Both the position numbers and the translations under genes were made by a program. Below the pieces are notes generated by a model that worked only from the letters and a program-made list of their open reading frames with translations, ran no database searches and had not been told where the DNA came from. A DNA stretch of 64,000 bases from Myxococcales bacterium 68-20 (GTDB lineage Bacteria; Myxococcota_A; Polyangia; Polyangiales; Polyangiaceae), in assembly GCA_001899635.1 (NCBI GenBank), contig MKVQ01000017.1, positions 153,018-217,017 on the forward strand. Reading direction: 5' to 3'. Positions 23,197-63,379 of the stretch are shown here, one piece after another (positions within the stretch are counted from its first letter, which is position 1; each line of letters starts with the position of its first letter).

Positions 23197-23314
23197 CTCA
23201 TCAGGGTAGCTCACGATCGAAAGCGGCGCCCACATGACGTTCGATCTTCTCCAAGATCACGCGTGCGTCGGCTTGCTCGTGAACCCTGGAGCTCGGTTGT
23301 GTAACGTGCGGCGG

Positions 23315-25555
23315 ATGCGTCGTGTGCTCATCGGGTCGTTGATCGCGCTCGCCTATGCCGCGCCTGCGGCGGCGGCCGTGCCCAGCGGGTTTGCTCAGGA
23401 GAGCTACACGAGCAACGAGCTGAAACCGGCCACCGGCGCGGCCTGGGCGACCGACGGATCGGGTCGGCTCTTCGTACTCCGCAAGGACGGCAGCATCCGG
23501 GTGGTGCGCACGGTGGGAGGTCGACCGCAGACACAACCCGGCGGTGGCATGACCCTCGAAGTCAGCACGTTCGCGACCGAGCCAGCCGTGCACACGAGCT
23601 CCGAGTCGGGGCTGCTCGGCATCGCGCTCGATCCGAACTACGTCGTCAATCGCTACCTCTACGTGTTCGTCTCGGTCTCCGCGAGCCAGCAGCAGATCGT
23701 CCGTTACATCGACGTGGACGGGGGGACCGATGCTCCAGGGATCGGAACGGACCGCACGGTGATCGTGGCCAACCTACCCACGAAGGGCGGCATCAATGTC
23801 GGAGGTGGCCTCGCCATCGGCGGCGACGGCAAGCTCTACTTCTCGATCGGCGACCTCGGCGATGGCACGGGCGTCGACGCCGACCTCACCAGCCTCGCCA
23901 GCAAAGTCGGCCGCGCAAACCTCGATGGGACCCCGGCCAACGACAATCCGTTCAACGACGGAGTGGGACCCAACAACGAGTACATCTGGGCCCGCGGCCT
24001 TCGCAACCCGTTCGGGCTGTCGCGACAACCGAGCACCGGCAAGCTTTGGACCACCGTCGCTGGCACGAGCTACGAGCAAGTCTTCCTGCTCGAGGCCAGA
24101 GCACATGCAGGTTACAACGATTACGAGAACAACCAGCCCGCGAGCTACCTGGCGCCGAAGATCGCGTACCGAACGAACGGCACCGATACTCGAAACGTCG
24201 CCTCCGCGGTGCGCGCAGGCGGGACGCTGACGGTCACCACCACCACTGCACACGGATTCCGTGTCGGTCAGTCGATCGAGATCGCGGGAGTGGCCAACGC
24301 CTCGTTCAACGGCAACGTCTACGTGCGAAGCGTGTCGGCGACGTCGTTCACCGCCGCGCAAGCAGGCGCGGACGCCAGCGCCGGCGCGGGGGGAACCGCG
24401 AAAACGAAGGACCTCGGCGGCGCCATCACGCGCGGAACGTTCTACGACGGCACCGCATTTCCAACCGAGTACCGGGGGAACTTCTTCTTCGGTGACTACA
24501 ACACCGGCAATCTCGTGCGCGCGGTCTTGTCGGCGACGAACGAGGTCGAGCGCGTCGACGTCTGGGGCACCGGGTTCAACGCAAACGTGCAGGTGGCGAC
24601 CGGTGACGACGGCGCGCTCTACGCTTTGGGGTACACGACGGGCGTGCTCCATCGCGTGAGCGCGACGACGGCCACACCAAGGTTGGTCGTGTCCAACACG
24701 ACGCCGCACGTGCTCGAGGGCGGCCGCGCCGCGTTCACGGTGGCGCTCTCGGCGGCGCCTGCTGCCAACGTGACGGTGACGGTCGCGAGGAGCGGCGGCG
24801 ACGCCGACATCGACGTGCTCACGGGTGGCTCGCTGACCTTCACCCCGACCGACTGGCAACAGCCTCGCGCCGTGATCCTGGCGGCGGCCAGTGATGCGGA
24901 CAGCGTCGCCGACGTCACCGACTTCGACGTGTCGGCGCCGGGCCTCGCCACCGAACGCGTGGTGGCCACCTCGATCGAGGCGAACGGACCGCAGCTCGTG
25001 CTCTCGACCGACACGCTCCACGTCCCCGAGGGCGGGCAAGCGACGATCACGGTCGCTTGGTCAGCGGCTCTGAGCCGGGCGACGACGGTGACCGTGAGAC
25101 GCGTCGGCGGCGATCCGGACGTGACCGTCGTGGAGCCGGCGACGTTGTCCTTCACACCGGCAAACTCGAAGACTCCGCAGACGGTGACCTTCGCAGCTGC
25201 GCATGACGACGACGGCATTGCAGGTCGTGCACAGATCGCCGTGGCGTCCCCACTGGGCGCGCGCGCGCTCGAGGTGATCGAGGTCGACGACGAGGCGCCG
25301 CCGCCGTCCCCCGATGCCGGCCCCGACGACGGCGGAACGCAGGACGCTTCGGTGCCGGATGCGGCGACGGTCGACCCGTCGCGTCCGCAGGAACCTGGTC
25401 CCGCTCCGTCGACCCCGGACGCGTCTGCGGAAGTCACTTCGGCCGAGTCCGAAGGCGGCTGCAACTGCAATGCGCATGGAAAGGCCGGAAGCGGTGCGCT
25501 GTGGATCGCGCTCGGCCTCCTCTTTGCGCGTCGCCGTCGCGCGAGCCGTGAGTGA
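23315..25555 (+). CDS. PQQ-type glucose/sorbosone dehydrogenase-like surface protein with MYXO-CTERM tail
   Basis: A signal peptide (LIGSLIALAYAAPAAAA) precedes a GSDH-type six-blade propeller: SGRLFVLRKDGSIRVV, ESGLLGIALDPNYVVNRYLYVFVS, GGLAIGGDGKLYFSIGDLGD, NEYIWARGLRNPFGLSRQP. The family oxidises sugars with PQQ at the membrane or outside. Residues ~292-363 interrupt the propeller with a module of the E1-FCCH type (TTAHGFRVGQSIEIAGV, NASFNGNVYVRSVSATSF). Two Calx-beta-like repeats follow (VLEGGRAAFTVALS, VPEGGQATITVAWS), then a Pro/Asp/Ala linker and a MYXO-CTERM end (GGCNCNAHGKAG, span, RRRRASR). The 746-residue length is much more than a plain GSDH. ATG 23315 is chosen at the signal peptide. 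Confidence 0.9.
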   Translation: MRRVLIGSLIALAYAAPAAAAVPSGFAQESYTSNELKPATGAAWATDGSGRLFVLRKDGSIRVVRTVGGRPQTQPGGGMTLEVSTFATEPAVHTSSESGLLGIALDPNYVVNRYLYVFVSVSASQQQIVRYIDVDGGTDAPGIGTDRTVIVANLPTKGGINVGGGLAIGGDGKLYFSIGDLGDGTGVDADLTSLASKVGRANLDGTPANDNPFNDGVGPNNEYIWARGLRNPFGLSRQPSTGKLWTTVAGTSYEQVFLLEARAHAGYNDYENNQPASYLAPKIAYRTNGTDTRNVASAVRAGGTLTVTTTTAHGFRVGQSIEIAGVANASFNGNVYVRSVSATSFTAAQAGADASAGAGGTAKTKDLGGAITRGTFYDGTAFPTEYRGNFFFGDYNTGNLVRAVLSATNEVERVDVWGTGFNANVQVATGDDGALYALGYTTGVLHRVSATTATPRLVVSNTTPHVLEGGRAAFTVALSAAPAANVTVTVARSGGDADIDVLTGGSLTFTPTDWQQPRAVILAAASDADSVADVTDFDVSAPGLATERVVATSIEANGPQLVLSTDTLHVPEGGQATITVAWSAALSRATTVTVRRVGGDPDVTVVEPATLSFTPANSKTPQTVTFAAAHDDDGIAGRAQIAVASPLGARALEVIEVDDEAPPPSPDAGPDDGGTQDASVPDAATVDPSRPQEPGPAPSTPDASAEVTSAESEGGCNCNAHGKAGSGALWIALGLLFARRRRASRE

Positions 25556-26200: not shown

Positions 26201-28540
26201 ATGAAGAACATCACCCGGCTCACCGCGCTCGCTCTGGTCGTAGGGGTCCTCCCGGCCAGTCACGCCTTCACGACCGGCTGCGACTCGGAGGGCACCGCCG
26301 ACACCGGAGCCGGTGTGGGTGCCATCGTCTTCATCAAGCGCCAGCACACGGCAGGCTCGGGGGCCGGCGCCACGGTCAACGTCGCGGGCGGCAACGGCCA
26401 GGTGCTCGACTACGAGCGCTTCGAGCCGGGCGGACAGCTCGTGATGCTGACGCCGCCGCGTCACGACGGCGTCCTCAAGGTGATCACGTCCGAGTTCACG
26501 ACCGCCGACTTCAACGGGGCCGACGTCTCCTTCGACGCGAAGCAGGTCGTCTTCTCGATGAAGCGCGACGCCGACGATCACTATCACATCTACACCGCGC
26601 AGCTGACCGAGGGCGCGGACGGCAAGTTCGAGATCCACCAGCGCACCGGCGGCCCGCACGACGACATCAATCCGATCTACATCCCCGGCGGTCGCATCGC
26701 GTTCGTGACGAACGAGATGTACACCGAGATGGGGACGCGCCACGACGAGTACAACCACGGGCGCGGCGTCACCCAGCTCGCGACGATCTCGGTCGATGGC
26801 GGTGACGCCGATCGGCGCCTCGCCTCGCAGAACCTCTCGCACACGGTCGCGCCGTGGCTGCGCTTCGACGGCAAGATCGGCTACTCGCGCTGGGAGCACC
26901 TCGGCGGCGTCAACGACGTGAAGCTCTTCGCCGCGAACCCCGACGGCACGCAGATGCTCGGCCTCGCCGGCCAGCACGCGAAGCCGTCGAACTCGCTCTT
27001 CAGCGTCCGCGAGCTCGAGCCGAACGTCATGATCGGCATCGCGACGACGCGCGAGCGCACGATCCACGCCGGCGCCCTCGTGAGGATCGACGCGCGTAAC
27101 AGGAACGACGAAGTCTGCATGAACCCCAAGATCCTCGACAAGGGCGCCCGCCCTTGCGTGGACGAGGAAAACGTCGAGTACACGATCCTCACGCCGGAGG
27201 TCCCGACCTCGAGCGGACCGTCGCCGGTCGGCCGCTACCGCGAGCCGTCGGCGCTGCCGGACGGGCGCATCCTCGTGTCGTGGGCGGAGGGCCCGGTGAA
27301 CGATCTGTCGGAGCAGTCGATCACCCCGCCCGACTTCGGCGTCTACGTCTTCGACCCCGCCACCCGGAAGAACAAGCTCATCTACAACGACCGCACGACG
27401 TGGGAGCTCAACGCGATCGCGGTCGCTCCGCGCGTCGAGCCGCCGCTCATTCGCGACATCATCGGCCCGAACGTGGACCCGGGCACGCCGGTGCGCATCG
27501 GCTCGGTCGACATCACGAAGACGAGCCTCAAGGACGTCGTGAAGGGCGCGCAGTTCGGCGACCAAGGCGTGCCGCTAGCGGAGGCGCTGAAGCAGGCCGT
27601 GAAGGTCCGCGTCATCGAAGGCTTCTCCAGCGAGGGCGCGAAGGGCGTCACGATGTTCGGCCTCACGATGGACGAGGGCGCGGCGATCCTCGGCGAGGCA
27701 GACGTGAACCCGGACGGGAGCTGGCTCGCCGAGATCCCGCCGTACGTCCCGGTCCACCTCCAGCCGATCGACAAGTTCGGCCTTTCGATCCGCAACCAGC
27801 GCCTCTGGATCCAGGGCATGCCCGGCGAGAACCGCCGCTGCATCGGCTGTCACGAGCAGCGCTCCGGCATCGGGGCTCCGTCGATGGGCCAGAACCCGAC
27901 CGTCGCGGAGCAGCGCCAGGCGCAGCAGTTCCTCGCTCCGATCGCGGACCGCGTCGAGCTGCCGTGGGCGCTGAAGGCCGCCGATTATCCGCTCACCCAG
28001 AAGCCGAAGATCGTCATCCAGGACATCCTCGACAAGAAGTGCGTGCAGTGTCACTCGGGCGGCTCGAACGATCCCTTCGCCGGCCGCACCTATCAGATGT
28101 CGGCGACGATCCCGGGAACGGGCGCGGCGCAGACCTTCACCATCCCCTACCTCGATCTGTCGGACGCCGAGATCGACGTCGTCTACGACCGCATGCCAGC
28201 GAGCTACCCCAAGTCGTACGTCTCGCTGTTCTTCCCGGCGACGATGGAGATGGGAATGGGCGTCTCGCAGCTCGGCGGCGAGCAGCCACCGCTCTGGGCG
28301 ATCCCGAACAACGCGCGTGAGTCGGCGATGATCAAGAAGCTCAACGTCCGCGCTGCGGACGGCACCTTCGCGTACGGCAACCCGACGATGCATCCCGAAG
28401 ACAAGGGGGTCGAGCTGACGGACGCCGAACGGCTCGCGCTCATCCAGTCCATCGACGTGGGAGGCCAGTTCTACGCTCGGCAGAACACCGGCTTCGTTCC
28501 CTTTGCCAACAACCCGGTCGCCCCCGGCCGGAAGTACTGA
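26201..28540 (+). CDS. HzsA-like di-haem propeller protein (hydrazine synthase alpha-related)
   Basis: This 779-residue exported protein has an N-terminal signal ending near HAFTTGC and a propeller of PD40-like blades to about residue 430 (VSFDAKQVVFSMKRD, NPIYIPGGRIAFVTNEMY). A middle part carries GVPLAEALKQ, ILGEADVNPDGSWLAEIPPYVP and PGENRRCIGCHEQR, with haem motif CIGCH at 547-551. A second haem motif, CVQCH, is at 614-618. This order of propeller, LGEAxVxxDGSWxAxIP, PGExRxCxGCHE and a later CxxCH is that of HzsA-like proteins. True HzsA is part of the anammox hydrazine synthase; relatives outside anammox bacteria have no known reaction. The Arg/His-rich blades may bind an anionic ligand, which is inference. 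The HEAT-repeat gene follows 13 bases later. Confidence 0.85.
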   Translation: MKNITRLTALALVVGVLPASHAFTTGCDSEGTADTGAGVGAIVFIKRQHTAGSGAGATVNVAGGNGQVLDYERFEPGGQLVMLTPPRHDGVLKVITSEFTTADFNGADVSFDAKQVVFSMKRDADDHYHIYTAQLTEGADGKFEIHQRTGGPHDDINPIYIPGGRIAFVTNEMYTEMGTRHDEYNHGRGVTQLATISVDGGDADRRLASQNLSHTVAPWLRFDGKIGYSRWEHLGGVNDVKLFAANPDGTQMLGLAGQHAKPSNSLFSVRELEPNVMIGIATTRERTIHAGALVRIDARNRNDEVCMNPKILDKGARPCVDEENVEYTILTPEVPTSSGPSPVGRYREPSALPDGRILVSWAEGPVNDLSEQSITPPDFGVYVFDPATRKNKLIYNDRTTWELNAIAVAPRVEPPLIRDIIGPNVDPGTPVRIGSVDITKTSLKDVVKGAQFGDQGVPLAEALKQAVKVRVIEGFSSEGAKGVTMFGLTMDEGAAILGEADVNPDGSWLAEIPPYVPVHLQPIDKFGLSIRNQRLWIQGMPGENRRCIGCHEQRSGIGAPSMGQNPTVAEQRQAQQFLAPIADRVELPWALKAADYPLTQKPKIVIQDILDKKCVQCHSGGSNDPFAGRTYQMSATIPGTGAAQTFTIPYLDLSDAEIDVVYDRMPASYPKSYVSLFFPATMEMGMGVSQLGGEQPPLWAIPNNARESAMIKKLNVRAADGTFAYGNPTMHPEDKGVELTDAERLALIQSIDVGGQFYARQNTGFVPFANNPVAPGRKY

Positions 28541-28553
28541 GGAGATGAAGACC

Positions 28554-29519
28554 ATGCGTATCTCCTCTTCGGAAGGCAGCGCTCGCTCGCGTCGCTCGCG
28601 CACCGAGGCCAAGCTCGGGTACTTCGGGCTCATCGCGTCGATGGCGTTCGCATGCGCCTCGATCGTCTCGAGCGGCGATGCGACGGCGAACACCTCCGAG
28701 AACATCGCGGGGACGCAGCGCGTCTACGGCGCGATCCCACCGGACCAGATCGAGCACATCTCCACGAGCGATCGCATCAAGAGCGTCGCGGCGTCGGGCT
28801 CGATGATGGCGATCTGGGAGACGCTCGAGCACGGCGAGCGCGTCGAATGCCTCGACTGCATCCCGGTGATCGAGCCGCTCCTCTACGACGCGAACCCGCG
28901 CACGCGCGAGATCGCTGCGTGGTGGCTCCGCCGCCGCATCTTCGGCGTCTTCGGCAAAGGCCAGGTCTACGAGCGCACCGTCCGGACGCTCGAGAGCGAC
29001 ACCGATCCGGTGCGCCGTATGTACGCCGCGAACGCGCTCGGCGAGTTCCTCGCTCTCCCTGGGATCGACGCCTGCGCGGCCGCGCTCGAGCGCGATTCCG
29101 ACCCCACCGTGCGCGCGGCAGCGGCCAGCGCGCTCGGACGCCTCAACGACACCGGAAACGGCGCGCTCGCGAAGGCACTCAGCGACGTCGACTCTCGCGT
29201 CAAGCTCGCGGCCCTCCGCAGCGCGAGCCGGCTCAACGCATTCACGGACGTGTCCGCCGTCGCGCGGCTCTCCGGCGACGGCGACCCCATCGTCCGCCGC
29301 AACGCGGCCGAGCTCATCGGTCACCTCCGCGCTCCCGAGGGCGTCGACAGCCTCCTCGCGCTCGCGAAGGATCCCGATGCGAACGTACGCAACGCCGCCT
29401 GCCACTCGCTCGGAGCTCTCCACGATCAGCGCGCGCGGGGCGTCCTCGAAGACCTGGCGAACAACGACCCGAACACGCTCGTGCGCGACCAGGCTCGGAT
29501 CGCCCTGCGCCGACTCTAG
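28554..29519 (+). CDS. Exported or membrane-anchored HEAT-repeat protein
   Basis: The 321-residue product has an N-terminal hydrophobic segment (YFGLIASMAFACASIVSS) and then about six HEAT/PBS-lyase-type helical repeats, such as DPVRRMYAANALGEFLALP, DPTVRAAAASALGRLND, DSRVKLAALRSASRL, DPIVRRNAAELIGHLR and DANVRNAACHSLGALHDQ. A section with CLDCIP lies before the repeats. HEAT arrays bind other proteins, and its place between two HzsA-like genes suggests it scaffolds or matures them. ATG 28554 is preceded by GAGGAG at suitable spacing; ATG 28545 is possible. It has no haem motif of its own. Confidence 0.85.
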   Translation: MRISSSEGSARSRRSRTEAKLGYFGLIASMAFACASIVSSGDATANTSENIAGTQRVYGAIPPDQIEHISTSDRIKSVAASGSMMAIWETLEHGERVECLDCIPVIEPLLYDANPRTREIAAWWLRRRIFGVFGKGQVYERTVRTLESDTDPVRRMYAANALGEFLALPGIDACAAALERDSDPTVRAAAASALGRLNDTGNGALAKALSDVDSRVKLAALRSASRLNAFTDVSAVARLSGDGDPIVRRNAAELIGHLRAPEGVDSLLALAKDPDANVRNAACHSLGALHDQRARGVLEDLANNDPNTLVRDQARIALRRL

Positions 29520-29626
29520 CCGGGCTAGCAAGCACGTCCGAAGGACGCAGACGAAGCGAGCCGTGCATCAGGCGAAGCCGTGTCGATGCCCCCGCAACCG
29601 ACCTGACCCCGTGTAACCTTGGAAGC

Positions 29627-32600
29627 GTGAAGGGCTTGCTGCATCTCCGCCTGCCGGCGCTCGCCGCCTGTATCGCCGCGCTGGCCGCCGCGTGCTCGAC
29701 CAAGGAGCCGACGAAGTCGACGTACTTCGAGCGGACGATCAGCCCGATCCTCACGACGTCGTGCGTGCGCACCAACACGGGTGCGGGCTGCCACGTCGCC
29801 GACGCGCGCGGCAACGCGCTCGGCAACCTCGACGCCGCGAGCTACGAGGGCGTGCTGAAGCGGAAGGACCTGCTCCTCGATTACGGCCCGTACGGACAGC
29901 CCGGCTTCCTCCTCAAGAACGTCGCGCCGTCCCAGATCGAGGTGCAGGGCTACGACGGCGTGAAGTCGGTCATCACGACGGACATCAAGCACGCCGGCGG
30001 CTCGATCCTCGATCCCACCGGCACGGCGTACCAGACGCTTCGGCGATGGATCCAGAACGGCACGACCGAGAACAACACCGGCCCCGCCCCGACGAACATC
30101 GAGCGCCTGCCGTGCTCCACCTTCGTGCCGGGCCGCGCCGACTTCGATCTCGGCACCGACCCGGCGCGCCCCGACTTTGCGACCTTCCGCGATCGCGTCA
30201 ACGGCCTCCTCTCGGGGACGGCCGACGACGACGGCTTGAAGAAGCTCGCATGCGCCGCATCGAACTGTCACGGCAACCTCTCGAACTCGCTCTACCTGAC
30301 CTGCGGGAGCACGCCCGAGCAGCTCCGCTGGAACTACCTCGCGGCCCAGGAGTACCTCGCCCAGACGCCGGAGCAGAGCGAGCTCCTCCGCCGCCCGCTC
30401 GCGCCCGCGCAGGGCGGCGCGTACCACGAGGGCGGCATCATGTTCTCCTCGCCCGCCGACGAGGGCTATCGCCGCTTGGAGGAGTGGGCGCGCCAACACG
30501 GACCGGCGACCGCCACCGACGACGACGGCCCCGGATTCGCGTTCTTCGCGCACAAGGTGCAGCCCGTGCTCGTGAAGAAGGGCTGCATGATGATGCAGTG
30601 CCACTCGGCGTCGATGTTCCACGACTACCGGCTCCGCGGCGGGTCCGCGGGGAGCTTCTCCCTCTCGGCGACGCGGCAGAACTACGAGCTGTCGCTCGCT
30701 CAGATGTCGATCGAGAGCGAAGACCCGAACGCCAGCCGCTTGGTGCGGAAGAACCTGTATCGACCTGAGGTCTGCGGCGTCGCCGGCTGCGACAAGCCCG
30801 CCGGCATCGCGCATCGCGGCGGTCCGCTCTTCGAGGACTTCGGCGCGGAGCGCGCGAGCCCCGAGGCCTGCGCGGCGGGCAACCACGACTACGACAACGG
30901 CGACCTCGACAAGATCCCCGCCTACTGCGTGATCCTCGAATGGCTGAAACGCGAGCGCGACCTCCACAAGCTCGCGCCGCTGAGCGGCATCGTCTACGTG
31001 AAGCGCCCGATCGGGAGCCTCACACGCGCGCAGGATTTCGACGTCTACGCGCCCGGCGCCGATCTCCGCCGCGTCGACACAACGATCGCGAGCGGCGCGC
31101 TCGGCGTCACCGACGGGACCGACAAGTCGCTCACCGCCGGCTGCGGGCTCGATCCAAGGACCGCCGACATCCGGAGGCCGCAGGTCTCGTGGGACGGCAC
31201 GCGCGTCGCGTTCGCGGCCCGATCGAGCGCCAGCGAGCCGCTCGCCGTCTACGAGATGAACGCCGACGGCTCGAGCTGCTCGAAGCATCCGGGGATCAAC
31301 ACCACGCCTCCGTCCGAGAACGGCCTCCTCGTCCACAACTTCGATCCGACCTACGCTCCGCCCGACGGCGGCTTCTCGCGCATCGTCTTCGCGTCGACGC
31401 GCGGGAACCTCTCGAACGCGGCGTACGACTACCAGGGCCCGCAACGCACGCCTGCGGACCCGACCAAGCCGAACTCGAACCTCTACGTGCTCGAGCCGAA
31501 CCCAGCCGCGCCGGCGCAGACCCGCGTTCGCCAGCTCACGTTCCTGCTCAACATGGAGCGCCAGCCCTCGTTCATGAACGACGGGCGCATCATCTTCACC
31601 GCCGAGAAGCGCGCGCCGGGCTTCTACCAGCTCTCGCTCCGGCGACTGAACCTCGACACCGGCGACTACCACCCGCTCTACGCCCAGCGCGGCTCGATCG
31701 GCTTCCCCGAGGCCACCCAGGTGGTCGAGCTCGCGGACAAGGACTTCGCCACGATCTTCTCGGTGCAGGCGAGCCCGGGCGGCGCCGGCACCCTCGGCGT
31801 CTTCAATCGATCGATCGGGATCGACTTCACGAGCAGCGATCCAGCCGACTATCCCGTCGACCCCGGGGTGCTCGATCCGGCACAGCTCCAGGCGCCCGAT
31901 CCGGCGTTCTTCCTCCGCTCGCTCCGCTTCCCCGACCGCGCTGCGAACCCGCGCCCGGGGCAGCCGACGAGCGGCTTCTACACGTCGCCGGCAGCATTGC
32001 CGTCGACCTCGCTCCTCGTGAGCTTCGATCCCGGCGGCGGCGACTACGACGTCTACGTGATGGAGCCGGGCAGCGGCGCGAAGACCAAGCTGTTCGGGGA
32101 TCCGTCGAGCGCCGAGGTCGATGCCGTCGCCGTGTACGCGCGCTTCCCGCGTCGCATCTACCGCTCGAGGCTCGACGAGCCGAACGGGCACGTCCTCATG
32201 TTCGAGGACAAGCAGGAGGCGGAGATCCACGTCCTCGACTTCCACGTCCTCGCCTCTCTGCTCTTCCAGAACACCCCGACGGGTCGCCAGATCGATCCCG
32301 ACATCTCGACGTTCAACGTCTACGAAGACATGCCTCCGCCGCTCGAGGTCGACTCGATGGACAAGGGCGGCACGTTCGTCGCGAACGACGCCTTCGGCCG
32401 CGTCTACGTCCGCCGCCGCCTGCTCGGTACGGCGGCCGTGGAGGCCGACGGCTCGACGAAGCTCTCCGTCCCGGGCGGCGTTCCGATCGTGCTGGAGCTA
32501 CCGCCGACGAAGCTCTCGCAGGAGAAGGGGCTCCCGCGCGTGCAGCGGGAGGCGATGTCGTTCTCTCCGGGCGAGTACGCCCATCAGTCGTTCCGCGCGA

Positions 32601-32785
32601 ACCTCTTCGATGGGCTCTGCGGACAGTGCCACGGCTCGATCTCGGGCCGCCCGATCGACGCCGCGCTCCAGCCCGACTTCGTCACCCAGGCGTCCAGCAC
32701 GCTGTCGCGCTTCAAGGGTTCGTTCGACATGAACAAGCCTCCCGCCGCCCGCGGTGCGATCACCGGTCCGCCGGCCACCCCCTGA
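29627..32785 (+). CDS. Large multi-haem HzsA-like lipoprotein with unusual CXnCH motifs
   Basis: The 1052-residue product starts with a lipobox (AALAAACSTKE, Cys23). Four candidate haem-attachment motifs follow: CX8CH at 46-56 (ending GAGCH), CAASNCH at 209-215, CMMMQCH at 320-326 and CGQCH at 998-1002. The central and C-terminal parts form a PD40-type propeller (RPQVSWDGTRVAFAARSS, QPSFMNDGRIIFTAEKRAPG) ending in FRANLFDGLCGQCHGSISGRP. It shares its layout with the protein two genes upstream, so the two are probably paralogues or partners. CX4CH and longer spacings are accepted for haem c in some multihaem proteins. GTG 29627 starts the lipoprotein signal and has GGAAG just before it. Confidence 0.8.
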   Translation: MKGLLHLRLPALAACIAALAAACSTKEPTKSTYFERTISPILTTSCVRTNTGAGCHVADARGNALGNLDAASYEGVLKRKDLLLDYGPYGQPGFLLKNVAPSQIEVQGYDGVKSVITTDIKHAGGSILDPTGTAYQTLRRWIQNGTTENNTGPAPTNIERLPCSTFVPGRADFDLGTDPARPDFATFRDRVNGLLSGTADDDGLKKLACAASNCHGNLSNSLYLTCGSTPEQLRWNYLAAQEYLAQTPEQSELLRRPLAPAQGGAYHEGGIMFSSPADEGYRRLEEWARQHGPATATDDDGPGFAFFAHKVQPVLVKKGCMMMQCHSASMFHDYRLRGGSAGSFSLSATRQNYELSLAQMSIESEDPNASRLVRKNLYRPEVCGVAGCDKPAGIAHRGGPLFEDFGAERASPEACAAGNHDYDNGDLDKIPAYCVILEWLKRERDLHKLAPLSGIVYVKRPIGSLTRAQDFDVYAPGADLRRVDTTIASGALGVTDGTDKSLTAGCGLDPRTADIRRPQVSWDGTRVAFAARSSASEPLAVYEMNADGSSCSKHPGINTTPPSENGLLVHNFDPTYAPPDGGFSRIVFASTRGNLSNAAYDYQGPQRTPADPTKPNSNLYVLEPNPAAPAQTRVRQLTFLLNMERQPSFMNDGRIIFTAEKRAPGFYQLSLRRLNLDTGDYHPLYAQRGSIGFPEATQVVELADKDFATIFSVQASPGGAGTLGVFNRSIGIDFTSSDPADYPVDPGVLDPAQLQAPDPAFFLRSLRFPDRAANPRPGQPTSGFYTSPAALPSTSLLVSFDPGGGDYDVYVMEPGSGAKTKLFGDPSSAEVDAVAVYARFPRRIYRSRLDEPNGHVLMFEDKQEAEIHVLDFHVLASLLFQNTPTGRQIDPDISTFNVYEDMPPPLEVDSMDKGGTFVANDAFGRVYVRRRLLGTAAVEADGSTKLSVPGGVPIVLELPPTKLSQEKGLPRVQREAMSFSPGEYAHQSFRANLFDGLCGQCHGSISGRPIDAALQPDFVTQASSTLSRFKGSFDMNKPPAARGAITGPPATP

Positions 32786-32853
32786 GCGTGCACCAGCGTC
32801 CTCCGCCCCGCCGCACTGGCGCGGTCCCCGAGGCGCGCTACACCTCTTCGCCT

Positions 32854-33363
32854 GTGCTTGCTTCTCTTCTTCGGCCGGCACGACGCGGCCTGGCTCCACT
32901 CGTTCTCCTCACGCTCGCGAGCGGGTGCAAGGTCGGCGGCTGCGCGGCGAACGTCCTCGGAGACATCGTCGGCCAGACGGGTGACGTCTATTGCGATCGC
33001 CGCTTCGTCGACAGCCCGAGCAAGCAGCCCGCGCCGTTCTGCCAGGAGGTGATCGATACGATCGCCGTGGGCGAGATCGAGGACGACTGCCGCGAGAAGC
33101 ACGCCGCGCGCGCGAGCGAGGGCAAGTGCCCGCGCGCGAACATCATCGCCGGCTGCAAGCTCCACAAGGACAACGACGACGGCTCGGAGGTCTGGGACTG
33201 GTACTACGACGTGTCCGATCTCGAGGACGCGAGCGCGCAGGACGCCGACAGCGAGGCCGGTCCGCTGTTCAAGGACCCGATCCGGACGAAGGAAGAAGTG
33301 AAGGAGCTCTGCGCGGATCCGAAACGGTACGAAGAGGGCGCGACGTTCGTCGAGAGCCCCTGA
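32854..33363 (+). CDS. Small acidic lipoprotein at the end of the HzsA-like cluster
   Basis: This 169-residue protein has a lipobox (LVLLTLASGCKVGGC) followed by a Cys-containing domain (VYCDRRF, APFCQEVIDTI, DDCREKH, KCPRANIIAGC, LCADPKRY). The cysteines are at least seven, mostly paired along the sequence, and the C-terminal half is acidic. I do not recognise the family. GTG 32854 is the likely start, 68 bases after the large haem lipoprotein, so it may be co-transcribed. A hairpin at 33406-33422 would end the unit. Confidence 0.75.
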   Translation: MLASLLRPARRGLAPLVLLTLASGCKVGGCAANVLGDIVGQTGDVYCDRRFVDSPSKQPAPFCQEVIDTIAVGEIEDDCREKHAARASEGKCPRANIIAGCKLHKDNDDGSEVWDWYYDVSDLEDASAQDADSEAGPLFKDPIRTKEEVKELCADPKRYEEGATFVESP

Positions 33364-51977: not shown

Positions 51978-54308
51978 ATGCGACGTCTGCGACAGATGGC
52001 TGGAGCGATGTTCATGGTTGTCGGGTTTGCGCTCGGATGCGATTCCGCGCCCGGGTCCGGCTCCAAGGTATCGAAGCAGGGTAACGGCGCCCCTGGCGAC
52101 GCCGGCGGCCTCGGCGACGCCGGCGGCCTCGGCAACTACGGCAACTACGGCGACTACGGCGACCACCCAGTCGCGGTGACGACGACGATCTCGGCAGAGC
52201 GGCGGGGCGAGCTCGCCAAGCTTCAAACGCAGCTCGACACGGTGAAGGACCTCGACGCGGCAGGCTTCGCCGCGTCCTACGCGGTGCCGTTCACGACGAC
52301 GCTCGGTTACGACCCGCTGACCGCGAACGGCGTCGATCGGATCGCGGCATCGAGCTTCGCGCTCGACGAGGACGAGAAGGCGGCGCTCGGTACGAACGGA
52401 TTCGTCATCAGTGAGCGCAAACGCTTTCCGACCTTCGGTTACGGCTATCTGAGCATCTACAGCGACGACCTGCCCGTCTACGTGTCGGCGGACTCGATGC
52501 TCTATGCCGTGCACTCTTCATTCGACGACATCTTGAAGGCGATCGAGGAGAGCGTGCTCCGCACGAAGCTCGCGAAGCTTCTCGACCGCATGCGCTCCGC
52601 GCTCGCTGGCGGTGCGGGATCGGGGCTCTCTCCCAGGGCCCGCGCCGACGCAGATGTGTACCTCTCCGTCGCTGCGAGCTTGCTCGCTGGCCGGTTCGAT
52701 GGTCCCACGGCCGGAGGTGACGCTGCCGCTGCGGGGATGCTGTATTCGAACGCGGCCAAGGCATCGGACCCCACGACGGTCAAAATCTTCGGCGTCGCGC
52801 GCAACATCGACTTCTCGCAATTCAAGCCACGCGGCCACTACACCAAAAGCGAGAAGCTCAAGACGTACTTCCAAGCAATGATGTGGCTCGGACGCATCGA
52901 TCTGCGCCTCCTGGAGACGATGCCCGACTCCACTCAGGTGTTTCGGCGAAACCAGCTCGAGGCCGCGTACGTACTCCGTGCGCTCATGGACGAAGCCGCG
53001 CTCGCGGAGTGGAGGCAGATCGACGCGACGATCGGGGGGTTCGTCGGCGAGCCGGACAACATGACGCTCCCGCAGCTCGATCGCCTGCTCGCGGACCTGA
53101 AGATCGACAGCCCATCGCAACTCGCGGGGCTCCCGGATGCCACGATCGCCCAGGCGATCGTCGACGGCGCCTACGGCGCGCAGCGCATCTCGAGCCACAT
53201 CATGGTGAACGGTCTCGGCAGCGGGACGATGCCGCTCTCCAGCACGTTCCTCCTCCTCGGTCAGCGCTACGTGCTCGACAGCCACGTCTTCTCGAATGTC
53301 GTCTACGACCGCGTCAAGCACGGCGCCGTGCCCCGAATGATGCCAAACCCGCTCGACGTCGCTTTCGCCGCATTCCGCAACGATCAGGCGGGCCAGCTGC
53401 TCGGTCCCGAGCTCGAGCGCTACGACTACGCCTCCGACCTCGCATCGATGCGCGTCCTCGCCGAGGCCCACCCGCAGACGTACTGGGAGGCGAACCTCTA
53501 CAACGAGTGGCTGTCGATGTTGCGGACGCTCTCGCCGACGTCCGACGTCGCGAGCCCATCCGCCGTCGGGCTGCCGCGCGTCACCGGCACGGAAGCATGG
53601 GGGCGACGGCTCCTCTCCGCCCAGCTCGCATCTTGGGCGGAGCTCCGTCACAACACGATCCTCTACGTGAAGCAGTCGTACACGAGCGAGGCTTCCTGCG
53701 AGTATCCCGACGCCTACGTCGACCCGTATCCGGAGCTCTTCACCAAGCTGGCGGCCTTTGCGGCTCGTGGCTCGACGTTGATGGCCGAGCTGGAGCTCCC
53801 CGACGATCTCCTCGTCCAGGCCGTAGCCACGTACTTCGAGCGCGTCCGCCGCGTCGCCGCGACCCTGGGGGCGATGGCGAAGAACCAGCGCACCGGCGCA
53901 CCGCACACGGCCGAGCAGCTCGCATTCATCAACGAGCTCAACTTCCGCCCGAGCGGAGGCTGTGGCGGCGGGCCGCCGAGGCTCAATGGCTGGTACGCGA
54001 AGCTCTTCTTCGACGTGAGCGCTGCGACGGAATCCAATCCGATCGTCGCCGACGTCCACACCCAGCCGACCGACGAGAGTGGCGCGGTGGTAGGGCGGAT
54101 CCTCCACGTCGGTACCGGCACACCGCGAACGATGGTCGTGACGGTGGAGAGCTGTTCGGGCCCGCGCGCGTACGTCGGCCTGGTGTCGAGCTACCACGAG
54201 CGCATCACGGAGGACTTCGAACGACTGACCGACGAGAGCTGGGGGACGGGCTTCATCGAGAATCCGCCTCCGGACGTCGGCTGGATCAAGGACCTCGTTC
54301 AGCGCTGA
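51978..54308 (+). CDS. DUF3160-type lipoprotein
   Basis: The 776-residue protein has a lipobox (MVVGFALGCDS), a Gly/Asp/Asn/Tyr repeat linker, and a long helical domain resembling the DUF3160 family: LPVYVSADSMLYAVHSSFDDIL, RGHYTKSEKLKTYFQAMMWLGRIDLRLL, QRYVLDSHVFSNVVYDRV, SWAELRHNTILYVKQSYT. A C-terminal beta-rich domain (GRILHVGTGTPRTMVVTVESCSG) ends it. The family function is unknown; a predominantly alpha-helical repeat body is expected. ATG 51978 starts the signal peptide. Confidence 0.85.
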   Translation: MRRLRQMAGAMFMVVGFALGCDSAPGSGSKVSKQGNGAPGDAGGLGDAGGLGNYGNYGDYGDHPVAVTTTISAERRGELAKLQTQLDTVKDLDAAGFAASYAVPFTTTLGYDPLTANGVDRIAASSFALDEDEKAALGTNGFVISERKRFPTFGYGYLSIYSDDLPVYVSADSMLYAVHSSFDDILKAIEESVLRTKLAKLLDRMRSALAGGAGSGLSPRARADADVYLSVAASLLAGRFDGPTAGGDAAAAGMLYSNAAKASDPTTVKIFGVARNIDFSQFKPRGHYTKSEKLKTYFQAMMWLGRIDLRLLETMPDSTQVFRRNQLEAAYVLRALMDEAALAEWRQIDATIGGFVGEPDNMTLPQLDRLLADLKIDSPSQLAGLPDATIAQAIVDGAYGAQRISSHIMVNGLGSGTMPLSSTFLLLGQRYVLDSHVFSNVVYDRVKHGAVPRMMPNPLDVAFAAFRNDQAGQLLGPELERYDYASDLASMRVLAEAHPQTYWEANLYNEWLSMLRTLSPTSDVASPSAVGLPRVTGTEAWGRRLLSAQLASWAELRHNTILYVKQSYTSEASCEYPDAYVDPYPELFTKLAAFAARGSTLMAELELPDDLLVQAVATYFERVRRVAATLGAMAKNQRTGAPHTAEQLAFINELNFRPSGGCGGGPPRLNGWYAKLFFDVSAATESNPIVADVHTQPTDESGAVVGRILHVGTGTPRTMVVTVESCSGPRAYVGLVSSYHERITEDFERLTDESWGTGFIENPPPDVGWIKDLVQR
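52095..52163 (+). repeat. In-frame tandem repeats in the DUF3160 lipoprotein linker
   Basis: An 18-bp unit encoding GDAGGL is present twice in perfect copy, followed by a 9-bp unit encoding GNY/GDY in three near-perfect copies and a partial fourth. All units are multiples of three, so copy number could vary without a frameshift. Confidence 0.85.
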
Positions 54309-60101: not shown

Positions 60102-61466
60102 TCAGGCCTTCAGGTTCGGCAGCGGCCCGGTGCAGCTCGCCGGATCGCCGTACGTGGTGTCGGGCAGGCCGAACGCGTTCAGGATCGAGACGAGCATGTT
60201 GTTGTGCGACACGTGCGGATACGTCAGGTAGCGCCCTGTCTTGAAGTACCCGCCTGCGCTGCCGAGCAGGAAATAGGGCATATCGATATAGTTGTGATAA
60301 TCCGCCTCGGCGTTCTCGGCCCCCTGGAGCATGAGGACGGAATCGAAGAGCGAGCCTCCGAGCCCGTCGGGGGTGTCCTTCAACTTCTGCGCGAAGTAGG
60401 CGGTCTGGCCGAGGAACCACTGCGTGATCTTGAGCAGCTGCGCCCGGTATCGGCTCGGTTGATGGGACATCTCGTGGTGCTCGTTCGCGAGCGGGTCGTT
60501 CTGGTTCTCCGGGAGACCGAGCCAGGGGAAGTAGCTGAGCCCACCGCCGCCATGGCGGATCGTCATCGTGACCGAGCGGGTGATGTCGCAGCTCAGCGCG
60601 ATCACGGCGAGGTCGATGAGCGACTTCACCTTGTTCGGGAGGTTGCCGAAGTTGTCGCCCTCGGGGAAGCCGGAGACGGGGCCGGGGTTGCCGCACGAGG
60701 CCGAGATCGAGAGCCTGGTCTCGAGATCGCGGATCTGCGTGAGGTGAGCGTCGAGACGAGCGGCGTCGGACGCGCTCACCTTGCCCTTGAGCGCCGTGTA
60801 GTCGCCAATCACGCTGTCGAGGATGCTCTTCCGGCGCGCGAGCTGGGCCTGGATCTGCGCCTCGGTGAGCTTCGCATCGGCGAAGATCTTGTTGTAGAGG
60901 GCCACCGGCGAGGTCTGAGCGGGCACGTCCTGCTTGAACTCGTCGACCGAGAACGTGTGGGGCTCGGATCCGATCGCGAGGGAGCGGATCTTCGTCTGCA
61001 CCCCCAGCTTCTTCATCATGTACTGGTCGATCGTCGTCCCGGGGTTCGGGTAGTTGAAGGCGTCGCTGCCGGGGATCGCGTGTCCGGAGAGGAACGCCGT
61101 CGCGCCTTCGTAGTGGCCGTTCATCGGCCCCTTCGTCGCGACCGAGCAGTCGATCCCCTTGAAGACGATCATGTCCTGCTTGTGCGCCGCGAGCGCGCTC
61201 ATCGCGGGAGCGAGCGTGAAGCTGCTCTCGCTTCCCGTCGGGAACCAATCGGCAGCGACGCGGCCGTTGTTGTGAAGGATCGCGACGAAACGCTTCGCGG
61301 TCGAGAGACCGCTCCGGGCACGCCCGACGTTCTCGCTTTCCACGTCGCGCGACGGAGGACCGTCGTTGTCACGATTGCAGCCCATCGCCTCGAGGAGCGG
61401 GAGCCCGATGGCGATGCTTCCAAGCCCGCGAAGGACATGGCGACGACTCAGCTCGAACTTGCTCAT
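60102..61466 (-). CDS. DUF1552 family exported protein
   Basis: The 454-residue protein has a twin-arginine-type signal (LSRRHVLRGLGSIAIGLPLL), so it is probably exported folded. DUF1552 motifs follow: RFVAILHNNGRVAADWFPTG, NGHYEGATAFLSGH, TIDQYMMKKLG, DAHLTQIRDLETRL, SVTMTIRHGGGG, and HHEMSHQPSRYRAQLLKITQWFLGQTAYFAQKL. The family function is unproven; members are consistently encoded beside DUF1592/DUF1588 proteins. GGAGAGTGACC before ATG 61466 is a good ribosome-binding site. The upstream partner ends 64 bases before. Confidence 0.93.
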   Translation of the reverse strand: MSKFELSRRHVLRGLGSIAIGLPLLEAMGCNRDNDGPPSRDVESENVGRARSGLSTAKRFVAILHNNGRVAADWFPTGSESSFTLAPAMSALAAHKQDMIVFKGIDCSVATKGPMNGHYEGATAFLSGHAIPGSDAFNYPNPGTTIDQYMMKKLGVQTKIRSLAIGSEPHTFSVDEFKQDVPAQTSPVALYNKIFADAKLTEAQIQAQLARRKSILDSVIGDYTALKGKVSASDAARLDAHLTQIRDLETRLSISASCGNPGPVSGFPEGDNFGNLPNKVKSLIDLAVIALSCDITRSVTMTIRHGGGGLSYFPWLGLPENQNDPLANEHHEMSHQPSRYRAQLLKITQWFLGQTAYFAQKLKDTPDGLGGSLFDSVLMLQGAENAEADYHNYIDMPYFLLGSAGGYFKTGRYLTYPHVSHNNMLVSILNAFGLPDTTYGDPASCTGPLPNLKA

Positions 61467-61530
61467 GGTCACTCTCCGAAGACGGAACCGAAGGAGATTC
61501 GATGACGCGCGTGGCCGTCGACGACCGCGC

Positions 61531-63204
61531 TCATGGGCTCGGGGCCCGGTAGAGGAAGCCGTCGGTCTGCGTGAGAGCGACGAGGAGCTCCTGGACCTTG
61601 AAGCCGGAAGCCTTGAAGCCGGCGTCGAGCTGCTGGAGCGTGCACTTGTCGGCCTTGCTCTCGATGCGCCCGGCCTGAAAGCGGAACCACTGCCGCGCCA
61701 CGCACGTCTGCGCTTCGGGGCTCTCGGCCAGCTTCGATGCGAGCTCGACGGCGCCGTCGAACTTGCCGATGGCGGTACCGAACACCTCGCCCGTCGCATC
61801 GATCGGCCCCTGGTCGTCGGTGCGCCAGCGGCCGATCGCGTCGTAGTGCTCGAAGCCGAAGCCGACCGGATCGAGCATCGTGTGACAGCCCGTGCACGCC
61901 TGCGCCTTCGTGAGCTCGGTGATGCGCTCACGGGTCGACTGGCCATCCTTCGGCTCGGGCAGCGCGAGCGATACGCCCGCGGGCGCCGAGGGCATCGACT
62001 GGCAGAGGATCTGCGTGCGGACGAACTTGCCGCGGAGGATGGGCGACGTCTGGTTCGCCTTCGCCATGGAGCTCATGAGACCGAGCTGGGTGAAGATGCC
62101 GGCGCGCTGGCTCGGATCGAGGTCCACCTTCCGCAGCTCGGATCCCGTGACGCCCTGGACGCCGTAGAGGGGCGCGAGCAGGTCGTTCGCGAAGGTGTAC
62201 GGCGCGGTGAAGAGGCCCTTCAGGTCGCCGGTGCCTTCGAACACGACGTGCTCGGCGAAGCGCTCGGTCTCCGCCTTCATGAGCGGGATCATGGCGTCGG
62301 AGAACTCGGGGTAGGCCGTGCTGCTCTTGACGACGGTGTCGACCTTGTCGACGCTCAGCCAGCCGCGGTGGAACTTCTTCACGACCGCGTGAGCCCGGGG
62401 ATCGTTCAGCATGCGTCGCGCTTGTTCGGCGACCTTGTCCTTCGACGCGAGCGCGTTCGACTCGGCAGCGGCGAAGAGCGCGTCGTCGGGCATCGTCCCC
62501 CAGAGGAAGTAGGAGAGGCGCGACGCGAGCTCCCATCCGGAGAGCGGGATCATCGCGTCCGCCGTGCTGCCGCCGGTGTTCGTCTCGATTCGGTAGAGGA
62601 AGCTCGGCGACTGGAGCATGCGCTGGATCACGTAGCGGACGCCCGAGTCGAAGCCGCCTGCGGCCTTGCCGGCGTCGAACGTCGTCAGCAGCGAGTCGAT
62701 CTCCGCAGGCTCGAGCGGGCGCCGGTAGGCACGCTTGCCGAACGTCGTGATGAACTGCCGCGCGCACTGCGCAACATCCGTCTTGGTCGCGTCGCACGGG
62801 ACGATCTTCGAGATCGTCACGCCCGCGGCGATCTTCTCCGCCGCGTACATGTATTGCGTGGCGAGATCGAGCGAGACACCGCGGTCGGTCGCGTGGTTGT
62901 CGAAGCCGTAGAAGACCTCCTCCGAGGGGAAGTCGCTCGTGGGCGCGTTCGTGTCGCCGAGCAGATCGCGGATCGTGTTGTCGTACTCGAATCGCGTCAG
63001 GCGGCGTGACGCCGACGGCCCCGCGTAGGTCTCGTCGCAGCTCGGCTCTCCGTCCGCTTCTCCAGGAGGAGGAGGAGGCGCCTCGGTGCCGTTTCGCCGG
63101 GCGCGGTCCTTCTCGTCGCTCTCGTCGGCGCATCCGGCGACGGCGCCGGCGCTCGTGGCGAGCAGTACTGCGATCGCGATCAGCGAAGGTAGCTCGTACC
63201 TCAT
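61531..63204 (-). CDS. DUF1587/1595/1592/1588/1585 haem-associated lipoprotein
   Basis: The 557-residue protein has a lipoprotein-type signal (AIAVLLATSAGAVAGC) and then the characteristic domain series: DUF1587 (RRLTRFEYDNTIRDLLG), DUF1595 (QCARQFITTFGKRAYRRPL), DUF1592 (LASRLSYFLWGTMPDDAL, FHRGWLSVDKVD), DUF1588 (FTQLGLMSSMAKANQTSPILRGKFVR then CTGCHTMLDPVGFGFEHYD) and DUF1585 at the C-terminus. CTGCH is a haem c motif. Related proteins of planctomycetes and myxobacteria are thought to take part in extracellular oxidation, but the substrate is unknown. GGAGGAAAGGG before ATG 63204 is one of the strongest ribosome-binding sites in the window. Confidence 0.94.
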   Translation of the reverse strand: MRYELPSLIAIAVLLATSAGAVAGCADESDEKDRARRNGTEAPPPPPGEADGEPSCDETYAGPSASRRLTRFEYDNTIRDLLGDTNAPTSDFPSEEVFYGFDNHATDRGVSLDLATQYMYAAEKIAAGVTISKIVPCDATKTDVAQCARQFITTFGKRAYRRPLEPAEIDSLLTTFDAGKAAGGFDSGVRYVIQRMLQSPSFLYRIETNTGGSTADAMIPLSGWELASRLSYFLWGTMPDDALFAAAESNALASKDKVAEQARRMLNDPRAHAVVKKFHRGWLSVDKVDTVVKSSTAYPEFSDAMIPLMKAETERFAEHVVFEGTGDLKGLFTAPYTFANDLLAPLYGVQGVTGSELRKVDLDPSQRAGIFTQLGLMSSMAKANQTSPILRGKFVRTQILCQSMPSAPAGVSLALPEPKDGQSTRERITELTKAQACTGCHTMLDPVGFGFEHYDAIGRWRTDDQGPIDATGEVFGTAIGKFDGAVELASKLAESPEAQTCVARQWFRFQAGRIESKADKCTLQQLDAGFKASGFKVQELLVALTQTDGFLYRAPSP

Positions 63205-63379
63205 GGCCCTTTCCTCCGCGCTGCCTCGGCCGCGGTCCCTCCGGACCGCTCGCATCGTCAGCGCCGCTGGGCGACGAAGCACTCATCGTGCCGCGACGTC
63301 GGAATCGGCTCGCGCTCGGTATTTTCCCGGTGGAACGGCTGCACGGAGGCATCCGCGGAGGAACGATCGCTTCCCGTCG

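Follow-up and report, generated by a model that had tools for sequence, protein, structure and literature searches.

Hydrazine synthase alpha (HzsA) is usually treated as a speciality of anammox bacteria, although its fold is widespread in proteins that have no assigned reaction. The HzsA of Kuenenia stuttgartiensis (PDB entry 5c2v) combines a propeller, a middle domain and a C-terminal haem domain with two CxxCH sites, those of haems alpha-I and alpha-II, and the genes of HzsB and HzsC are its neighbours. A proximal haem ligand of this protein is Tyr591, according to the excerpted text of PMC12607021; homologs outside anammox bacteria are without this residue, according to excerpts of PMC12758564, which sort them into clades I–IV. 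The same excerpts report that Cys303 of the zinc site is absent in some anammox bacteria too. Here we analyze a 64,000-nucleotide stretch of the genome of Myxococcales bacterium 68-20 (assembly GCA_001899635.1, contig MKVQ01000017.1, positions 153,018–217,017 of the forward strand; henceforth the window), in which three consecutive genes, A, B and C, encode an HzsA-fold protein with two haem motifs, an exported HEAT-repeat protein, and a second HzsA-like protein with four haem motifs. The three genes recur together in myxobacteria, and we think it probable that they encode a single envelope haem redox complex. A first-pass annotation made from the sequence alone had placed open frames A, B, C and a smaller gene D here on one strand, and their coordinates, given below, agree with it.

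The HzsA-fold proteins encoded by genes A and C

Gene A (26201–28540, on the + strand, as are all features below unless stated) encodes a protein of 779 residues, a probable lipoprotein with its cysteine at Cys27, in which the propeller is followed by LGEADVNPDGSW (residues 497–508 of the translation, 27689–27724), then by CIGCHE and later by CVQCH. The LGEADVNPDGSW segment belongs to the HZS middle domain and lies within a match to PF18582 (HZS_alpha; residues 489–552) that scored 59 bits against a curated cut-off of 26.6; when the 11.9 Mb genome was scanned in six frames with this model, A was the sole match (62.7 bits). A PDB sequence search with A alone likewise returned one match, hydrazine synthase alpha 5c2v (E-value 1.8e-5), and a profile built from 27 proteins matched the same entry at 1.5e-16. 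The predicted structure of A (pLDDT 85.4) aligned with HzsA 5c2v over residues 38–764 (Z 35.8, 576 residues aligned, root-mean-square deviation 3.0), the runner-up fold being the TolB propeller (Z 27.2, 276 residues). As the alignment runs across all three domains, A is, on this model, a full-length three-domain relative of HzsA.

Both haem sites of HzsA have counterparts in A. CIGCH (residues 547–551, 27839–27853) aligns with the CTGCH of HzsA at the alpha-I site, and CVQCH (residues 614–618, 28040–28054) with the CASCH of the alpha-II site, while His731 (28391–28393), a candidate distal ligand of the alpha-II-type haem, aligns with a C-terminal histidine that is present in all six of our HzsA references and is likely the distal ligand there; from the alignment we read this histidine as the His772 of PMC12758564. 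Cys614, Cys617, His618 and His731 all align, so that A appears to keep the alpha-II CxxCH with a distal histidine, whereas clade I, as excerpted from that paper, is without His772. Conservation was counted over selected alignments of Myxococcota proteins, the window included: 44 of the 53 for A, 44 of the 47 for C and 29 of the 51 for B, fragments and some close relatives having been omitted. The alpha-I-type site of A reads CX2CH in 44/44 and the alpha-II-type site CX2CH in 42/44, with CX4CH in the other two (2/44); Cys27, His233, His551, His618 and His731 are conserved in 44/44 and His519 in 43/44. Four residues, Glu473, Asp524, Glu543 and His551, are invariant in a wider set of 55/55 A-type proteins (44 myxobacterial and 11 from other phyla), and the three acids are placed in the middle domain or just ahead of it. 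Among named genomes the closest A protein (91% identity) comes from a Labilithrix sp. assembly, and the next ones from Myxococcales and Polyangiaceae assemblies.

Gene C (29627–32785, GTG start) encodes a probable tetra-haem lipoprotein of 1052 residues with a different domain order, three tandem haem domains in the first 450 residues being followed by an HzsA-type propeller and middle domain; there is no alpha-II domain. The propeller and middle domain are common to both proteins by profile comparison (A 36–584 against C 449–1044, E-value 7.8e-45), and the predicted structure of C (pLDDT 86.7) was closest to HzsA over these two domains (Z 33.4, 482 residues; TolB Z 26.6). Against PF18582, C alone scored 20.1 bits, below the cut-off of 26.6, and 12 of 27 C proteins matched at an E-value of 0.01 or less; the kinship of C to HzsA rests on the profile and fold comparisons. 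The first-pass annotation had suggested a search with HzsA profiles, which thus bears out A and leaves C under the threshold. It had also named the lack of any likeness beyond a generic propeller as the result that would tell against it, and for both proteins the models place HzsA well ahead of TolB. Its assignment of one HzsA-like motif order to the two proteins is right for A and wrong for C: C has no later haem site, its HZS-type site being CGQCHG near the C-terminus, and three additional motifs upstream of the propeller (CX8CH, CX4CH and CX4CH) had escaped it.

The first of these motifs (residues 46–56, 29762–29794) reads CX8CH in 25/44 proteins and CX6CH in 19/44, whereas the second (residues 209–215, 30251–30271) and third (residues 320–326, 30584–30604) read CX4CH in 44/44. 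Each has a candidate distal ligand that is likewise found in 44/44, namely His122 (HAGG, 29990–29992) for haem 1, His267 (HEGG, 30425–30427) for haem 2 and His396 (HRGG, 30812–30814) for haem 3, where HAGG aligns with the HEGG of domain 2 and HEGG with the HRGG of domain 3. The three domains are homologous, domains 2 and 3 (E-value 9.5e-14) and domains 1 and 2 (7.2e-6) aligning with CXnCH and the later H-x-G-G in register; the alignment of domains 1 and 3 (5.8e-6) covers 36 columns around CXnCH only. The fourth motif, CGQCH (residues 998–1002, 32618–32632), lies behind the propeller, aligns with the CIGCH of A as the alpha-I equivalent and is CX2CH in 43/44, all but one row (L101) that a contig end truncates. 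Three bis-His electron-transfer haems and one HZS-type haem are thus predicted for C. Cys23 of C is invariant, as expected of a lipoprotein, and by inspection both A and C look like lipoproteins, with probable lipid anchoring.

The HEAT-repeat protein encoded by gene B

Gene B (28545–29519) encodes an exported HEAT-repeat protein of 324 residues, with what by inspection looks like a Sec-type export signal. A Pfam scan gave HEAT-type matches (HEAT_2, E-value 1.8e-31) together with weaker Cnd1 and Arm matches, in agreement with the HEAT-repeat protein that the first-pass annotation had recognized, and the protein has more than a generic HEAT composition. A CxxC (CLDC, residues 102–105, 28848–28859) and a WW pair, both ahead of most of the repeats, are invariant in 29/29 aligned B proteins that are 26–83% identical to B. 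Without a histidine behind it, the CxxC differs from a usual haem c site. A B profile found some match in 217 of 377 genomes of the phylum, of which 41 reached at least 232 bits, and the next among the matches listed scored 121 bits; all listed matches below 121 bits begin at profile position 90 or later and miss the CxxC region. Because of this gap in score and the missing CxxC region of the weaker matches, we regard B, on sequence grounds, as a dedicated protein distinct from the many HEAT proteins of these bacteria, and its full-length profile match occurs only in A-bearing genomes. We also considered a CpcE/F-type phycobilin (bilin) lyase and rejected it, as B scored 40.2 bits against the CpcE equivalog cut-off of 330, a generic weak HEAT similarity. 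A search for plasmid-borne B gave no match.

Conservation of the three genes

The host phylum, Myxococcota, was inferred from the relatives of A. Among its 377 genomes we counted A in 43, B in 41 and a strong C in 42, with all three in 41, and none of the 377 had B or a strong C without A. In these counts A required an E-value of 1e-90 or less (6 of 49 genomes, with weak matches between 1.9e-16 and 2.6e-11, were left out), B at least 232 bits, and C a best match of at least 496 bits, some of these cut by contig ends (36 of 78 genomes at 274 bits or less were left out). In the two exceptions among A-bearing genomes, G376 with no B and G038 with neither B nor C, the contig ends within A.

The genes are also kept side by side. 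Of 52 relative loci, 50 have B adjoining A on one strand and the two others lie at contig ends; in 41 of the 52, C comes directly after B. The gap from A to B ranges from -77 to 131 bases with six overlaps of -4, rough values as the starts in the relatives were picked by script; those of L056 are spurious, its B having been assigned a wrong frame. A second set, of 80 loci from named genomes, contained 32 with Myxococcota-type, Deltaproteobacteria or Proteobacteria titles: in 32/32 a B match follows right after A (in L095 a 19-bit fragment), and in 25/32 C follows in turn (in L089 and L101 as fragments). Of the seven loci without a following C, four end at the contig and three (L077, L078 and L083) have room for C and none there. 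Where C lies elsewhere in the genome, B stays beside A (L052, L054), so C can move away while B remains with A. In L068 and L070 there are copies of C that have no adjoining B.

Recurrence of A-B-C across the class is far beyond chance, and the first-pass annotation was right in expecting the three genes to be conserved together. Over 25 loci the pairwise distances among A, among B and among C proteins are correlated (0.92–0.97), as expected for co-inheritance, a correlation that shared ancestry alone could also yield.

Comparison with hydrazine synthase and other known systems

The six HzsA references, all of which lie above the cut-off of the hydrazine synthase alpha equivalog NF052339, read CTGCHWGSY at the alpha-I site, where A reads CIGCHEQRS. 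The HzsA tyrosine four residues past the CxxCH histidine, which in our alignment corresponds to Tyr591, is therefore missing from A, as is an insert of ~30 residues that follows alpha-I in HzsA. At the positions of Glu473, Asp524 and Glu543 the six HzsA have Asn, Asp and Gly, and the Kuenenia chain, as aligned, has Gln at Glu473 and His at Glu543. Against NF052339 the scores were 43.7 bits for A and 25.8 for C with a cut-off of 800; in the phylum of a Planctomycetota genome, 27 of its 392 genomes reach this cut-off. Whereas HzsA has HzsB and HzsC for neighbours, the lipoprotein-like A is neighboured by a HEAT protein and a second HzsA-like protein; searches with HzsB and HzsC from an anammox-type locus found no match on the contig of the window and, elsewhere in the genome, weak ones (best E-values 2.7e-5 for HzsC and 4.5e-5 for HzsB). 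Because the tyrosine ligand and the insert are missing, the equivalog score is low and HzsB and HzsC do not lie beside A, hydrazine synthesis by A-B-C appears unlikely, and we rejected hydrazine chemistry as an assignment; the first-pass annotation had been equally cautious in not taking it as implied. As a separate observation, weak HzsB and HzsC matches at G000:C3:141921-143585 of the same genome each fall in an open frame of 646 residues, perhaps one fused beta-gamma-like homolog far from A-B-C.

In the literature searched, PMC12758564 comes closest to the present case. Its HzsA homologs of clades I–IV, as described in the excerpts, resemble A in having the HZS_alpha domain, no equivalent of Tyr591 and no assigned reaction; they adjoin fused beta-gamma genes, and in clades I–III also genes for FG-GAP proteins, a pairing that A-B-C does not have. 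The strings "Myxococc" and "HEAT" were not found in the main text of that paper.

The remaining 48 of the 80 loci came from Planctomycetota, Verrucomicrobia, Lentisphaerae, Armatimonadetes, Nitrospirota and others, and their A-like proteins are 24–29% identical to A. None of these 48 non-myxobacterial loci has a B- or C-type gene of comparable score; in L110 one frame, which encodes another kind of multi-domain protein, reaches 24 bits against B. In three planctomycete open frames (L118 6700–10476, L127 3101–7117 and L127 6952–10473) HEAT_2 and HZS_alpha occur in one chain. These proteins bring HEAT repeats and the HzsA fold together as A and B do, and differ in being single polypeptides with one CxxCH, one of the three also having an F5/8-type domain; such fused chains support a physical association of HEAT repeats with the HzsA fold. 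PF18582 is abundant in some genomes outside myxobacteria: of six examined, four had 38, 42, 14 and 14 matches and the others 2 and 1. In Lentisphaerae, one open frame (L139:8506-11871) joins HZS_alpha to a ribose/galactose isomerase domain and is a candidate fusion. The PSCyt/PSD cytochromes of PVC bacteria (DUF1588/1592 with DUF1552) are, like A-B-C, envelope proteins with haem motifs and no known reaction; no PSCyt or PSD Pfam match was found in A, B or 27 C proteins.

A proposed envelope complex and its alternatives

We propose that A, B and C probably form one envelope haem redox complex, with A as the catalytic subunit, B as a scaffold and C as an electron wire. Sequences and predicted structures show that the three genes form a unit and occur exclusively together, that A and C have the HzsA fold, and that the haem motifs and histidines are conserved; covalent haem, a physical complex, the electron path and the choice of the catalytic haem are what we infer from them, and the redox role is likewise deduced from the conserved haem motifs. 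In such a complex the alpha-I-type haem in the middle domain of A would be catalytic, with three invariant acids in that domain or just ahead of it and no tyrosine ligand at the HzsA position, and the alpha-II-type haem, presumably bis-His (His618/His731), would pass electrons on. C would be a lipid-anchored partner whose tri-haem bis-His module wires A to periplasmic carriers, or works in the reverse direction, and B, in the periplasm, would act as a HEAT clamp, attached to A and keeping A and C paired. The first-pass annotation had called the system extracellular; an envelope placement agrees with the lipoprotein-like A and C and the apparently Sec-exported B, all by inspection, and need not mean a location at the surface.

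Several points weigh against this proposal. Neighbouring genes co-occur in any operon, which is no proof that their products touch, and A and C could be cytochromes that act independently and are merely regulated together. C lies apart from A-B in some genomes (L052/L077, L078 and L054/L083), a second strong C is found elsewhere in ten genomes (G023, G149, G031, G289, G318, G384, G042, G210, G096 and G396), and 36 genomes without a strong A hold weaker C-like matches (best 274 bits), most of which begin at about position 170 of the C profile; together these cases indicate that a C-type protein needs neither A nor B in order to work. The HEAT fusions amount to three open frames in two of the 48 other loci and have no CxxC outside the haem motif. 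CX8CH and CX6CH are unusual spacings for haem c. Glu900 of C, a possible counterpart of Glu473 of A, is kept in only 31/44, and the HZS-type site of C may therefore be degenerate. As to lipid anchoring, the A of the window lacks a canonical lipobox (FTTGC), and a simple lipobox pattern within the first 50 residues matches 27/44 A and 26/44 C, some of them off-site.

Two other explanations concern what B and the haems are for. B might be a maturation factor that reduces or presents haem motifs for haem attachment, its CxxC and helical repeats doing the work of CcmH with CcmI or NrfG on the oddly spaced motifs of the system. The invariant CxxC of B fits this idea, as does the finding that all 41 B-bearing genomes also have A and a C with atypical motifs, three of whose four have atypical spacing. 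Precedents are described in excerpted sources: CcmH/CcmI and NrfF/NrfG follow a chaperone logic of CxxC and helical repeats in haem attachment (PMC3601427), and SirA, whose motif is CX12NKGCH, depends on SirE, encoded in its cluster, as well as on CcmI and SirG as chaperones (PMC6976685). In five related loci, moreover, a DsbD-TM and thioredoxin gene lies upstream of A, its content known from the L056 member, the one scanned. B differs from the CcmH/CcmI and NrfF/NrfG proteins, however, in having HEAT repeats instead of TPR, in the lack of a CcmH Pfam match and in being tied to A, and Ccm-type haem-attachment genes are already present in the genome. It comes after A, a protein that nearly always has canonical motifs, remains there where C has moved and does not accompany the C copies of L068 and L070; a B tied to A rather than to C speaks against maturation, and the fused HEAT-HZS chains point to a structural role for B. 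We consider the maturation role improbable. We give about as little credence to the idea that no haem is catalytic, in which case the TolB-like propellers would bind a surface polymer or ligand and the haems would pass electrons. TolB is the next-best fold for the models of both A and C, F5/8-type galactose-binding-like domains occur in two of eight scanned non-myxobacterial relatives (L118, L123), and PSCyt proteins of Verrucomicrobia have been tied to carbohydrate use through gene context (PMC5615132, in excerpt). The invariance of Glu473, Asp524, Glu543 and His551 around the middle-domain haem across phyla suggests, against this, a shared pocket beyond a mere binding surface.

By far the least probable alternative is that A-B-C is a variant hydrazine or hydroxylamine-type nitrogen enzyme. 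A does resemble HzsA in its overall fold, in having two haem sites and in a distal histidine of the alpha-II type that aligns between them; on the other side stand the absent tyrosine and insert, the replacement of Glu473 and Glu543 in HzsA, the low equivalog score of A and the weak HzsB and HzsC matches away from the window's contig. The envelope complex of A, B and C remains the explanation we favour.

Significance

Among the papers listed by searches of the open-licence PMC literature, judged mostly by titles and abstract openings, none names the A-B-C trio. HzsA-fold proteins as such are already known; within the literature searched, what appears undescribed is the combination of two different paralogs with a HEAT gene of their own and a tri-haem module. 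A broader idea, which we offer only tentatively and with less confidence than the complex itself, is that HzsA-fold haem enzymes form a very large class, as yet unstudied, that uses conserved acids beside the haem and of which A-B-C is a well-delimited case, anammox HzsA with its tyrosine and zinc being a derived specialist and the myxobacterial enzyme a hetero-pair held by a HEAT protein and wired by a CX8CH/CX4CH tri-haem module. If this is true, the substrate, once found, would give access to a new kind of haem catalysis in the envelope and reveal the evolutionary origin of hydrazine synthase. As a compact, strictly co-occurring three-gene system of environmental myxobacteria, A-B-C offers a testbed for substrate, haem and the role of the HEAT protein, and the tyrosine and glutamate differences provide a simple sequence test against mislabelling such proteins as hydrazine synthase in metagenomes.

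Gene D and the genomic neighbourhood

Gene D (32854–33363), which follows C, encodes a small Cys-rich probable lipoprotein of 169 residues with no Pfam or NCBIfam match. The first-pass annotation had counted it into the unit; tblastn found matches to D in only 4 of 29 A-bearing relative loci (L033, L034, L035 and L040; a few loci end too early), and for this reason we place it outside the conserved unit. Clustering of neighbouring genes over 36 loci recognized no additional conserved partner: the clusters present in at least 19 loci were A, C, and overlapping or antisense frames on A, B, C and D, as assigned from the coordinates of their window members, the frame of B itself having given no separate cluster. 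For an outer-membrane barrel partner, as in an Mtr-type conduit, the clustered loci likewise gave no recurrent extra candidate, a result of clustering and not of a barrel profile, none having been run. Scans of members of smaller clusters gave a kinase (12 loci), a cytidine deaminase (8), OmpA (7), DsbD-TM/thioredoxin (5), PRA-CH (5) and a response regulator (5); four of the ten scanned members had no Pfam match, three of them from 7-locus clusters in single lineages. The scanned DsbD-TM and thioredoxin gene lies on the opposite strand (L056:7301-8686) and has counterparts in L053, L057, L059 and L082.

Just upstream of A in the window, 23234–25555 encodes a glucose/sorbosone dehydrogenase-like protein similar to those named "PVC-type heme-binding CxxCH protein", with a weak MYXO-CTERM match below the cut-off; a tblastn search of 40 loci gave no match to it. 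About 27 kb from A-B-C, on the - strand, a DUF1552 protein (within frame 60102–61946) stands beside a PSD3/PSD5/PSD4/PSCyt3/PSD2 protein (frame 61531–63282), so that 60102–63282 holds a PVC-type envelope cytochrome pair. A DUF3160 protein is encoded at 51978–54308 on the + strand (528 bits).

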